A DNA stretch of 35,104 nucleotides from Deltaproteobacteria bacterium (GTDB lineage Bacteria; Desulfobacterota; Desulfobaccia; Desulfobaccales; 0-14-0-80-60-11), in assembly GCA_021813445.1 (NCBI GenBank), contig JAKAKP010000038.1, positions 1 through 35,104 on the forward strand, in the 5' to 3' direction. Both the position numbers and the translations under genes were made by a program. Positions 3,006-20,954 of the stretch are shown here, one piece after another. Each line of letters opens with the position of its first letter. Within the stretch, counting starts at the first letter, position 1. The notes under the pieces are model-generated. The model was not told where the DNA came from. It saw only the letters and a list, made by a program, of their open reading frames with translations, and did no database searches.

Positions 3006-3134
3006 GGGGGACACCCATGTGTGCCCCCAGGACGTTCACAAAAACGCAATCCTTCGGTCTCTAAAAATAAATAAGATCATAGAATTAACGCATGATTATT
3101 TACAGCCGCCAGGGCGGACACCTGGGTCCGCCCC
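3006..3134. repeat. two REP-type palindromes in the bioC-iorA gap
   Basis: The 587-bp space between bioC and iorA has no gene that can be supported. It holds GGGGG...CCCCC with the core ACCCATGTGT at 3006-3028, and a GGGCGGAC-type palindrome at 3112-3134. Both belong to the same families seen inside and around the RAYT gene at 13.7-14.4 kb. Confidence 0.75.
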
Positions 3135-3188
3135 GACAAAAAAATTGCCGTTAGATTGCGCCCCGGTATTAGCGATGTAGCGTTGTAG

Positions 3189-6755: not shown

Positions 6756-6799
6756 GTAGGGGCGCACCTGTAGGGGCGGACCCGTGTGTCCGCCCTGGC
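6756..6799. repeat. GGGCGGAC-type REP palindrome
   Basis: Contains GTAGGGGCGCACC followed by GTAGGGGCGGACCCGTGTGTCC and CGCCC, that is, one partial and one full unit of the REP family that also occurs in the RAYT region. Located between iorB and the archease gene. Confidence 0.8.
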
Positions 6800-12584: not shown

Positions 12585-12938
12585 ATGGAACGCGTAGATC
12601 AATTATCCCGGGAGCAGATGCGGGCGGACCTGCCCGCGTTCCGGCCCGGAGACACCGTGGAAGTGCACGTGCGCATCGTGGAAGGGGACAAGGAACGCAT
12701 CCAGGTCTTTAAAGGCGTGGTGATCCGTAAAAGAGGGGCGCTTACCGGCTCCACCTTCACCGTGCGTAAAGTCTCGTACGGCGTGGGCGTGGAACGGATT
12801 TTTCCCCTGCACTCCCCCAATATCGAGCAGGTGGTGGTTCTCACCCGGGGCGATGTCAATCGCAGCCGTCTGTACTACCTGCGCCAGCGGGTGGGCAAGG
12901 CGGCCCGGATCAAAGAAAAGCGGACCCCCCACGCATGA
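12585..12938 (+). CDS. rplS: 50S ribosomal protein L19
   Basis: A 117-residue L19, which lies at the 30S-50S interface. The sequence shows [50 protein letters not shown] and the basic end [10 protein letters not shown]. The frame is open to a GTG at 12576 but ATG 12585 fits the family start. The stop overlaps rnhB by 4 bp (ATGA). Confidence 0.96.
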
Positions 12939-13573
12939 GCCCCCCCCGGGTCGGCAAGCAGGTTTTTGCTGACCCGGAGGCTTATTGGCGCTCGCAAAAA
13001 CTACCCGTCATCGCCGGCACCGATGAAGTGGGCCGGGGCCCCCTGGCAGGACCGGTGGTGGCCGCGGCCGTGATCATCCCTGCGGCCGCGGTCTTTCCGG
13101 GCCTGCGGGATTCTAAGCGCCTCACCCCCGAGATGCGGGAGGCCCTGGACGCGCAGATCCGCGAGCAGGCCCTGGCCTTTGCCATTAAAGAGGTGGGGCC
13201 CCGGCAGATCGAGACCCTGGGCATCCTGGCCGCCAGCCTCAAGGCCATGGCCCAGGCGGTGAAGGCCCTGTCCCTGCTGCCGGAAATCGTGCTGGTGGAT
13301 GGCCCGCACCCCCTGCCCCTGGCTTATCCCCAACAACCGGTGGTCAAGGGGGACGATCTCTGCCCCTCCATCTCCGCGGCCGCGGTCCTGGCCAAGGTAT
13401 ACCGGGACCGGCTGATGACCTCTTACCATCGCCAATATCCCCAATACAATTTCCATAGACACAAAGGCTACGCCACTGCCGAACACCTGGAGGCCCTGCG
13501 CTGCTGGGGCCCCTGCCCCATACACCGCCGCACCTTCAGCGGCGTCAAGGAATGGCTGGGTGATAGGGAATAA
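12935..13573 (+). CDS. rnhB: ribonuclease HII
   Basis: A 212-residue RNase HII that removes ribonucleotides embedded in DNA by cutting 5' of the ribonucleotide. The catalytic acidic residues are visible in [12 protein letters not shown] (Asp, Glu), ILVDG-type [10 protein letters not shown] (Asp) and a later Asp in DRLMTSYH; the [18 protein letters not shown] segment is the family signature. It overlaps rplS by 4 bp. In related genomes yraN follows immediately; here a repeat cluster and a RAYT gene intervene. Confidence 0.96.
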
Positions 13574-13649
13574 ATGGGGGCTTGCTTTTTCTCCCATAAT
13601 AATATTTCCTTTGCATTCCTGCCATCTTTGCGTGAGATTATTTCCCGTA

Positions 13650-13673
13650 GGGGCGGACCCACGTGTCCGCCCC
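13650..13673. repeat. REP palindrome upstream of RAYT
   Basis: A perfect 9-bp stem GGGGCGGAC/GTCCGCCCC with loop CCACGT, preceded by GTA and followed by CGGCGCTCGCAAA. It lies 63 bp before the RAYT start and is the best formed member of the family in the window. An upstream fragment TTTGCGTGAGATTA is from the repeat also found before ffh. Confidence 0.9.
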
Positions 13674-13736
13674 GGCGCTCGCAAATACAACTACATCCTT
13701 AACTCTATGATCACCTTGATTTAAGGACAGATCAAA

Positions 13737-14786
13737 ATGCCTCTTTGGCCATGGAAGCGCAAGTCTCCCCGGTTAGAGGGATTCGACTATGCCACGGAAG
13801 GAGCTTATTTTATTACGGTTTGCATCCAGAAACATGAATGTTTATTAGGGCGGGTGTCTGAGGGGATTTTTCAGCCGAATGCCGCCGGGAAAATGGTGGA
13901 AAGATGGTGGCAGAAATTGGAAAGCAAGTTCCCTCGAATCAAAATAGATTCTTTTTATGTGGTTATGCCCAATCATTTTCATGGCATTGTGTTTTTGCGA
14001 GCCTCTGATGGGGCACACACGGGTGCCCCCCTACAAGAATCCCCTGTAGGGGCGGACCCATGTGTCCGCCCTGGTGCGCCCGCGTTGTCTGGGAGGGCTC
14101 ATAGGGGTGCCCCCTTACAGAAGATCGTGCAGTGGTTCAAGACTATGAGCACTAATGAATATATTCATGGGGTTAAAGAATATGGCTGGCCCCAATTTAA
14201 AGATAAATTATGGCAACGCAGCTTTTATAATCATGTTATCCGCAATGAGGAATCGCTGAGTCGTATTCGGGAGTATATTGCCACGAATCCCAATCGCTGG
14301 ATCCTGGACCGGGAAAATCTCCAGGCCACAGGAAAAGATGATTTTGATGTCTGGCTTGACACCTTCAACAGCGGGCCACAAACATCACCTGGTGGGGGCG
14401 CACCCCGTAGGGGCGGACCCAGGTGTCCGCCCGTGGAGGCCAGACGCCGGTTAGGCGACGCCGGCGAAGACCTGGCGGCCGCGGCCCTGAGAAAGCAGGG
14501 CTATAAAATCCTGGAGCGCAACTATACCACGCCTCTGGGGGAGATCGACCTCATCGCCCGGCACCGGGGGGATCTGGTCTTCATCGAGGTCAAGACCCGG
14601 AAAAGCCTCCGCTACGGCGCGCCCCAGGACGCGGTCTCTCCCGCCAAACAGGCGCGTCTCCACAAACTGGCCGATTATTATGTAAAACGGCAGCGCCTGG
14701 GGGAGGTGCCGCTGCGCTTTGACGTGGTGGGCATTACCGTGTCTGTGGATGGACCCCAGGTAGAAGTTATCCAGAATGCATTTTGA
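13737..14786 (+). CDS. REP-associated tyrosine transposase fused in frame to YraN nuclease-like domain
   Basis: One 349-residue reading frame with two unrelated parts. Residues 1-200 are a Y1/HUH transposase of the RAYT type: SPRLEGFDYATEGAYFITVCIQ at the start, the HUH metal site MPNHFHGIVF (His80, His82), WQRSFYNHVIRNEESL and the catalytic-tyrosine helix IREYIATNPNRW (Tyr180). RAYTs nick and mobilise REP palindromes. Residues about 91-126 are translated REP sequence and break the normal spacing between HUH and the next helix. Residues 233-349 are YraN (described separately). The junction, about residues 214-232, is a translated REP palindrome. No stop codon separates the halves. Whether a fusion protein is made, and whether the RAYT is still active with its insert, cannot be told from sequence. 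Confidence 0.85.
   Translation: MPLWPWKRKSPRLEGFDYATEGAYFITVCIQKHECLLGRVSEGIFQPNAAGKMVERWWQKLESKFPRIKIDSFYVVMPNHFHGIVFLRASDGAHTGAPLQESPVGADPCVRPGAPALSGRAHRGAPLQKIVQWFKTMSTNEYIHGVKEYGWPQFKDKLWQRSFYNHVIRNEESLSRIREYIATNPNRWILDRENLQATGKDDFDVWLDTFNSGPQTSPGGGAPRRGGPRCPPVEARRRLGDAGEDLAAAALRKQGYKILERNYTTPLGEIDLIARHRGDLVFIEVKTRKSLRYGAPQDAVSPAKQARLHKLADYYVKRQRLGEVPLRFDVVGITVSVDGPQVEVIQNAF
14010..14071. repeat. two REP palindromes inside the RAYT coding sequence
   Basis: GGGGCAC/GTGCCCC (14010-14029) and GGGCGGAC/GTCCGCCC (14050-14071) lie within the RAYT frame and are translated, with a further GGTGCCCCCTTACA fragment near 14106. The combined insert keeps the frame open. Confidence 0.88.
14411..14432. 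repeat. REP palindrome at the RAYT-yraN junction
   Basis: GGGCGGAC, loop CCAGGT, GTCCGCCC. It ends exactly one base before the GTG (14433) that would start yraN by itself. Confidence 0.88.
14433..14786 (+). CDS. yraN: YraN family protein (UPF0102), C-terminal part of the fusion or independently started
   Basis: The last 117 residues of the fused frame are a complete YraN: RRLGDAGEDLAAAALRKQGYKILERNY, then the restriction-endonuclease-like active-site pattern GEIDLIARHRGDLVFIEVKTR (Asp, Glu-x-Lys), then QARLHKLADYYV and LRFDVVGI. Function is unproven; the fold resembles Holliday-junction resolvases and type II nucleases. GTG 14433 gives the normal family length and N-terminus, so the gene may still be translated by itself, although no good Shine-Dalgarno site precedes it (only the REP palindrome). 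The rnhB-yraN-rsmI order is the usual one for this gene. Confidence 0.75.
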   Translation: MEARRRLGDAGEDLAAAALRKQGYKILERNYTTPLGEIDLIARHRGDLVFIEVKTRKSLRYGAPQDAVSPAKQARLHKLADYYVKRQRLGEVPLRFDVVGITVSVDGPQVEVIQNAF

Positions 14787-14792
14787 GCGGTA

Positions 14793-14843
14793 GCACAGGC
14801 TTTCCAGCCTGTGCGAATTACCAGGGCGGGCGAGATGCCCGCC
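14793..14843. repeat. two hairpins between yraN and rsmI
   Basis: GCACAGGCT/AGCCTGTGC with loop TTCC at 14793-14814 (near-identical, with the flanking GAGCGGTA, to the copy at 9172), then GGCGGGC/GCCCGCC with loop GAGAT at 14825-14843. The rsmI frame is open through the second hairpin, but this part is not family sequence. Confidence 0.82.
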
Positions 14844-14906
14844 GAATTTTTCATGATTTATGGCTGGGCTTGTGGCCCACGGGCAACTGCATTGAGAGAT
14901 GGAAGG

Positions 14907-15743
14907 ATGGGTACCCTCTACATCGTCGCCACCCCCATCGGCAATCTGGAGGATATCACGCTCCGGGCCCTCCGGGTCCTCAAGGAGGCGGATCTCATTG
15001 CCGCGGAGGACACCCGGCACACCCGCAAGCTCCTCAGCCATTACGGGATTAAAACGGCCCTCATCAGCTATCACGCCCACAACCAGAAGACCCGGGGCCC
15101 GGAATTGATCCGGCGCTTGCAGGCAGGCCAGAATCTCGCCCTGGTGTGCGACGCGGGCACGCCCGGGTTCTCCGACCCGGGGACCGACCTGGTGGCCCTG
15201 GCCTGGGACGCGGGAGTAAAGGTAGAGGCCGTGCCCGGCCCCGCCGCGGGCGTGGCGGCCCTGTCCCTGTCCGGCTTCCAAGGCGACGTCACCTTTGTGG
15301 GTTTCCTGCCCACCCGGGAGGGCAAGCGCCGGGAATTTCTGGCCACCTTGGCGAATGAGCCCCGGGCGGTTATAATATATGAGTCACCCCGCCGCCTGCC
15401 GGCGACGCTTAAGGAAATCGCCGCGGTCATGGGCAACCGCCAGGTGCTGGTGGTCCGGGAGCTGACCAAGAAATTTGAAGAATCCTGGCGAGGGCCGGTC
15501 CAGGAAGTGGCCGGGCAATTGGCCGGCCGGGAGCTCAAAGGGGAGTGTGTGCTGGTCCTCTCCTGCCCGGCAGGAAAGGTGGCCCAGGAAGTGGATCTGA
15601 GCGGTTATCTGCTCCAGGCGGCCCGGGAAAGCGGCTTGCAGGGACGGCAGCTCACCGACTTGGTGGCTGGGAAATTGAAACTGCCCCGGCGCCAGGTCTA
15701 TCAGACCTATCTGGCCCTGAAAGCACAAGGCCACGTTAAATAA
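14907..15743 (+). CDS. rsmI: 16S rRNA (cytidine(1402)-2'-O)-methyltransferase
   Basis: The 278-residue SAM-dependent methyltransferase RsmI that adds the 2'-O-methyl group on C1402 in the decoding centre. It belongs to the tetrapyrrole-methylase fold: GTLYIVATPIGNLEDIT at the start, AAEDTRHTRKLLSHYGI, SDAGTPGFSDPG-type VCDAGTPGFSDPG, AVPGPAAGVAALSLSG and a C-terminal helical domain. ATG 14907 is chosen because the conserved protein begins with the GTLYIV strand; the frame upstream to 14811 is repeat-derived. Conserved neighbour of yraN. Confidence 0.95.
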   Translation: MGTLYIVATPIGNLEDITLRALRVLKEADLIAAEDTRHTRKLLSHYGIKTALISYHAHNQKTRGPELIRRLQAGQNLALVCDAGTPGFSDPGTDLVALAWDAGVKVEAVPGPAAGVAALSLSGFQGDVTFVGFLPTREGKRREFLATLANEPRAVIIYESPRRLPATLKEIAAVMGNRQVLVVRELTKKFEESWRGPVQEVAGQLAGRELKGECVLVLSCPAGKVAQEVDLSGYLLQAARESGLQGRQLTDLVAGKLKLPRRQVYQTYLALKAQGHVK

Positions 15744-20897: not shown

Positions 20898-20923
20898 GAA
20901 ATTCAACGAAGATGCGTTTTGCC

Positions 20924-20954
20924 GGGGCGGACCCGCGGGTCCGCCCCTTTTTTT
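20924..20954 (+). terminator. intrinsic terminator made from a REP palindrome
   Basis: A perfect 24-bp palindrome, GGGGCGGACCCG/CGGGTCCGCCCC (20924-20947), is followed on the plus strand by seven T. It lies between convergent genes and would end the SWIM transcript. Its arms are the same GGGGCGGAC core as the REP family, so the terminator appears to be a REP copy. On the minus strand there is no T-tract after the stem. Confidence 0.8.

Follow-up and report, generated by a model that had tools for sequence, protein, structure and literature searches.

The genome examined here (G000, 4.2 Mb) carries a reading frame in which a RAYT (TnpA-REP) transposase is joined through a translated REP palindrome to the widely conserved housekeeping protein YraN. 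In the window, which is the whole stretch of 35,104 nucleotides that was analysed, this frame lies on the forward strand at positions 13737-14786 and is open for 349 codons from ATG to TGA. The initial annotation had proposed such a single, stop-free frame, and our analysis confirms it. We consider it likely that a REP-flanked RAYT took over the start of yraN, giving one fusion protein with two nuclease parts. The gene order around the fusion is rimM, trmD, rplS, rnhB, RAYT-yraN, and rsmI. The left neighbour, rnhB (12935-13573, forward strand), has homologues upstream in all family members that were compared. On the right, homologues of the frame containing rsmI (14811-15743, forward strand) were recovered at 19 of 20 loci, and the real start of rsmI is probably near position 14910. 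An AAGGA sequence on the forward strand at 13723-13727, located 9 nucleotides 5′ of the ATG at 13737 and conserved in a second species of the genus (G004), is probably the ribosome binding site of the fused gene. A search of the window against Rfam yielded no matches.

The RAYT domain comprises residues 1-207 (13737-14357, forward strand) and is recognized by profiles, alignment, and modelled fold. It has the HUH motif and the single catalytic tyrosine of a Y1 fold, with His80, His82, and Tyr180 located as initially annotated and invariant in an alignment of the four fusions described below. Its profile scores are weak, with the Y1_Tnp profile of Pfam matching at E=1e-4, slightly below the gathering score, and the REP_Tyr_transpos profile of NCBIfam matching at E=2e-13 with 50.5 bits versus a cut-off of 80. 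These weak scores are probably due to in-frame REP inserts in the middle of the domain. The identity of the RAYT is settled by its REP context and by the match of the modelled domain to 4ER8, a RAYT bound to a REP (Z 11.5, rmsd 3.0, 132 aligned). As is characteristic of RAYT genes, it is flanked by GTAG-tagged REPs (13647-13672 and 14407-14432) of a type that is numerous in the genome. The presence of a REP inside the gene (14046-14071) and of G-C pairs at the base of the REP stem are features of TnpA-REP subclass 2.4, an assignment that is made here from the features described in PMC6006769. The internal REP is an exact pattern match on the forward strand and is translated as part of a 28-codon in-frame insertion in a RAYT loop (14022-14105, forward strand), which only the window's own genome has among the four fusions. 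By this alignment, it is a second, later REP within the same gene. The GC content of the RAYT is 0.43-0.50 versus 0.64-0.68 for rnhB and rsmI, and this AT-rich composition is a sign of foreign origin.

The YraN (UPF0102) domain follows as residues 234-349 plus the stop codon (14436-14786, forward strand). PF02021 matches residues 243-333 (E=1e-29, 102.9 bits versus a cut-off of 23.6), and NF009154 scores 126.5 bits on this half versus a cut-off of 109. The initial annotation had placed a complete YraN on the C-terminal side, which agrees with a UPF0102/YraN profile match that spans residues 234-349. Residues E244, D271, E284, and K286, which complete the catalytic E-D-ExK motif, are invariant in the four fusions. 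The gene also holds the operon place of yraN beside rnhB and rsmI. A stand-alone ORF with its own start, which is usual for YraN but not strictly defining, is lacking, as ATGAAA is absent in all four fusions.

The loss of the native start is evident from unfused relatives in three genera (G001, G002, G003, and G005; G008; G013), where yraN begins with ATGAAA-GAY-CC. In the fusions, the ATGAAA is replaced by the end of a REP, such that the junction reads CCGCCC-GTG-GAG in the window's genome, CCGCCC-TCA-GAT in G004, and CCGCCC-TCA-GAC and CCGCCC-TCG-GAC in two species of another genus in the same family (G016 and G021, respectively). We sought a second yraN in each fusion genome and found none, with each genome giving a single YraN match. 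The left side of the inserted block is marked by the old yraN leader, TTCCTTTGC...CTTTGCGTGA (13606-13635, forward strand). A TTTGCG-rich leader of this kind is found shortly 5′ of the yraN ATGAAA in four unfused species of the window's genus. When at most two mismatches are allowed, there is one copy each in G000, G001, and G005, two in G003, and four in G002, with one of each at yraN. In the window's genome, the leader is directly left of the upstream REP, and the window thus represents the filled form of a site with a known empty form. These comparisons support the earlier proposals that the RAYT has inserted between rnhB and yraN and that a mobile element has captured the 5′ end of the latter gene.

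The two halves are connected by a linker of residues 208-233 (14358-14435, forward strand). The REP within it, GTAGGGGCGGACCCAGGTGTCCGCCC, extends over 14407-14432 on the forward strand and codes within the peptide RRGGPRCPP. A palindrome had initially been assigned to 14411-14432; the palindrome is real, but these coordinates omit the GTAG foot, which is included in the full REP. Its end at 14432 does abut a GTG codon (14433-14435), as previously noted. G004, G016, and G021 each carry a REP at the corresponding place in the linker. The REP at 14407-14432 is not a chance palindrome because the pattern has 49 exact copies in the genome, compared to none for a reversed control pattern. Two REPs had gone unmentioned in the initial annotation, namely the RAYT-internal element at 14046-14071 and an upstream element on the forward strand at 13647-13672, which is an exact pattern match with a GTAG foot approximately 65 bp 5′ of the RAYT. 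Other copies in the window are present at 6770-6795 and 3112-3137, and a REP-like palindrome that is fully self-complementary (GGGGCGGACCCGCGGGTCCGCCCC) is located at 20921-20950. The RNA fold of the junction is stable, yet no more so than the folds of shuffled sequences (z −1.1).

A search of relatives, as the initial annotation had suggested, recovered the same in-frame fusion through a REP in G004 of the same genus and in G016 and G021 of the second genus, with frames of 325, 356, and 347 codons, respectively. The fusion is thus kept in four species of two genera, a small group of uncultured bacteria, with a REP in every linker. The G021 contig is publicly available as JAGVPN010000507.1 (a Syntrophobacterales MAG with the same sequence). 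All relatives of the family that were compared at the locus have either the fusion or a yraN without a preceding RAYT, and a separate RAYT stop codon with an independent yraN was sought among them without success. No further RAYT-YraN fusions were found in 29 genomes of the order and class or among the matches listed from 395 genomes of the phylum. Among the best 80 RAYT loci listed from a search of approximately 85,000 species genomes, a single locus has a C-terminal extension of more than 20 amino acids, and this is the contig of G021 itself (L086); no RAYT-YraN fusion beyond it was found among these loci. Long frames 5′ of yraN in G048, G007, and G020 were rejected as fusions because they are low-complexity or out-of-frame translations. 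Separately, G019 of genus g3 has 52 near-exact REPs, which is among the most in the family. Neither yraN nor rnhB was found in its 73% complete assembly, and it may hold a fifth fusion.

The fusion genomes appear to be metagenome assemblies, and only one of the three forward REP frames carries a stop, the other two being open, so that one open junction by itself would not be unusual. These facts could be taken to indicate that the fusion was created by faulty assembly or sequencing, or that it arose by a neutral accident and is now decaying. We consider this explanation scarcely credible. The sharing of the open fusion by three further genomes, and hence its presence in two genera, disfavours both a sequencing error and a one-off accident. 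Furthermore, the indels in the RAYT loop and in the linker are multiples of three, and the dN/dS of the RAYT core is low. Specifically, where synonymous sites are unsaturated, the values for this core are 0.068 (G000/G004) and 0.049 (G000/G021), compared to 0.17-0.19 for yraN in the same pairs. Measurable values for individual RAYT segments range from about 0.02 to 0.20, with the highest from the N-terminal part in the close pair G016/G021. Judged by these ratios, purifying selection acts strongly on the RAYT half, whose dN/dS is below that of yraN, and the low missense rate suggests that the RAYT's own activity is also selected. In simulations of neutral drift, the RAYT and junction were still open in 6.7% of runs at a divergence of 0.1 and in 0.8% at 0.2. 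The junction alone was still open in 56% of runs at a divergence of 0.2, and the argument therefore rests on the RAYT body and on the missing start in G021. Sequence comparison establishes an open frame in four species with the native start lost, catalytic residues intact, purifying selection acting on both halves, and no second yraN found.

Another possibility is that two products are made from one frame. In such a case, the fusion would be a by-product and most YraN would come from an internal start, with the REP supplying a transferable ribosome binding site plus start codon and with selection acting on yraN translation and not on the fusion. REPs at the 5′ ends of genes are often considered regulatory rather than coding (PMC3733652). 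Moreover, the GTG at 14433-14435 (forward strand) could start YraN by itself and is preceded, at a distance of 7 nucleotides, by an AGGTG (14421-14425) in the REP loop. This GTG is not conserved in the other three fusions, but G004 and G016 have an in-frame ATG within the REP loop, 7 nucleotides after an AGGGG. However, these start signals are located inside a stable predicted hairpin, and G021 maintains an open frame with neither feature. Its REP loop is CCTGCG, and there are no in-frame ATG, GTG, or TTG codons from RAYT codon 167 to YraN core codon 12, so that complete YraN in this species probably exists only as the fusion. An internal start also provides no reason for the missing RAYT stop in all four species. 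We therefore regard the production of YraN chiefly from an internal start as unlikely. The initial annotation had allowed for either a true fusion or a coupling of two proteins. No RAYT stop is left in frame, just as had been stated, and an ordinary stop-start coupling would have no such stop to work with. The evidence favours a true fusion, at least in G021, and an additional internal start is possible in G000, G004, and G016. In G016 and G021 (L004 and L006), the RAYT start overlaps the rnhB stop (ATGA), which suggests translation within the operon and indicates that the entire rnhB-yraN spacer is gone in the second genus.

The four fused RAYTs form one clade (SH-aLRT 99), and the other RAYTs of the family are located elsewhere in the tree, which includes no stand-alone member of the fused clade. 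In the yraN tree, the gene from the window's genome is found with those of G001 and G006, and that of G004 with those of G002, G003, and G005. A grouping of the G000 and G004 yraN genes is opposed by the DNA (AU p 0.007), and the flanking genes reject one clade of fusion genomes outright (AU p 1e-45). As the fused genes are not placed together in the yraN trees, straightforward vertical inheritance of one fused gene does not hold. With the RAYTs in one clade and the yraN genes ungrouped, it is probable that recombination at the locus has spread or removed the RAYT block. The residues that follow the RAYT 'WL' (DTFKARP / TTCKTRP) and the PPSD junction are common to both genera, and the fact that the residues there and at the YraN joint can be aligned between genera points to one fusion. 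The likeliest history, in our view, is one fusion event, after which recombination at this conserved locus transferred or removed the RAYT-linker block. These same trees, in which the fused yraN genes form no clade, could also reflect three or more independent insertions of the RAYT block, one per lineage and always at the same site. The old yraN leader left of the insert in the window's genome and the different 5′ junctions of the two genera are in keeping with such repeated insertion, as is a RAYT dS above that of most flanking genes, which is compatible with either origin. Repeated insertion is harder to reconcile with the single RAYT clade that lacks a stand-alone member and with the junction residues common to the genera, and a short REP guide sequence is unlikely to choose one site per genome. 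We view independent insertion as possible, though rather doubtful, and favour a single fusion that was subsequently moved or lost.

The density of GTAG-GGGCGGAC REPs is 8.6-26 per Mb in fusion genomes versus 0-9.4 per Mb in unfused genomes of the same two genera (one-sided exact p 0.0095, kinship ignored), a comparison in which relatedness and the other RAYTs of those genomes are confounding factors. The window's genome also has a second, stand-alone RAYT (L002, C108:602-1204) that belongs to another clade. The REP next to it is of a different kind (GGGCGAAC; GTAGGGGCGAAC...GTTCGCCC), a hint that each RAYT may have its own REP type. The greater REP density in fusion genomes and the pairing of the other RAYT with a different REP together suggest, though they do not prove, an active partnership between the fused RAYT and the GTAG-GGGCGGAC REP.

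An AlphaFold2 model of the fusion was built from 45 sequences and has a mean pLDDT of 82. The modelled domains are mostly at 88-98, and residues 217-236, including the REP-coded part, fall below 50 and are modelled as disordered. The two domains are thus predicted to be separate, flexibly joined units. The YraN half matches the YraN-family structure 3FOV (VIA-align Z 14.8, rmsd 1.4, 97 aligned) and Hjc Holliday junction resolvases (Z ~8.5, rmsd 3.0, 93 aligned). RAYTs bind and cut single-stranded GTAG-tagged hairpins (PMC8266576). YraN is a predicted PD-(D/E)XK nuclease related to Holliday junction resolvases (PMC1189080), and E. coli that has lost yraN survives less well at high temperature (PMC5828445).

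In our proposed mechanism, a REP-flanked RAYT would have settled between rnhB and yraN, where its 3′ REP replaced the native ATGAAA start. The RAYT frame would then continue through the translated REP into YraN to encode one protein of approximately 39 kDa, in which a HUH/Tyr single-strand nuclease for GTAG-tagged hairpins is connected by a flexible linker to an Hjc-like PD-(D/E)XK YraN. If the fusion protein is made and its RAYT half still acts on the GTAG-GGGCGGAC REPs of the genome, the linkage might bring YraN to REP hairpins or to nicks made by the RAYT. One half would cut or hold REP hairpins, and the other would process branched or nicked DNA. Because the sole yraN follows in the RAYT frame, any truncation of the RAYT would be costly. 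Selection would consequently act against nonsense or frameshift mutations within the RAYT, entrenching the transposase in a housekeeping operon. We offer only tentatively the fuller proposal that the HUH transposase guides a Holliday-junction-resolvase-like nuclease to REP hairpins via a REP-coded linker, that the transposase has become hard to lose through its capture of the start of the sole yraN, and that recombination at this locus carries the block from one species of the family to another.

The component parts of this arrangement are known, and the RAYT-YraN fusion itself appears to be undescribed. The papers searched contained no report of YraN linked to a RAYT or REP, and none in which a REP connects its transposase to a host protein. 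Gene-internal REPs have been described (PMC3733652). They are also on record for RAYT genes of subclass 2.4, as are DnaA_C or HTH domains in proteins of the RAYT type (PMC6006769). The survey in the latter paper excluded proteins of unexpected length, treating them as fusions or as errors of annotation. The fused RAYT resembles those of REPtron subclass 2.4 in its HUH and Tyr core, its flanking and gene-internal GTAG-tagged REPs, and its single copy, but it has no stop of its own and reads into a host gene. The extra C-terminal domains reported for the superfamily are DnaA_C or HTH (subclass 2.1) and not YraN (PMC6006769). Those proteins, too, have a DNA-related domain appended C-terminally to a Y1 transposase, whereas the fusion has a different domain and a different RAYT subclass, and a REP-coded linker is not described for them. 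REP- and RPE-decorated proteins (PMC3733652; Rickettsia palindromic elements) also carry a palindromic repeat translated in frame, often in a DNA repair protein. Here, in contrast, the repeat forms the connection between two distinct proteins, and one of these is its own probable transposase. Compared to the usual YraN/UPF0102 protein (3FOV, Hjc-like PD-(D/E)XK), the fused form retains the full domain, the ID-EVK motif, and the place beside rnhB and rsmI, but has no native start and bears a HUH nuclease at its N terminus.

RAYTs persist for long periods as single-copy genes, and we know of no benefit that they bring to the host. A RAYT that is locked in frame to the sole copy of a housekeeping gene represents a concrete and testable route to such persistence. 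The fusion also ties YraN to a class of proteins with known substrates, namely REP hairpins and single-stranded DNA, which provides a handle on YraN function. Finally, this family offers an example of a REP as a coding linker that joins two proteins.
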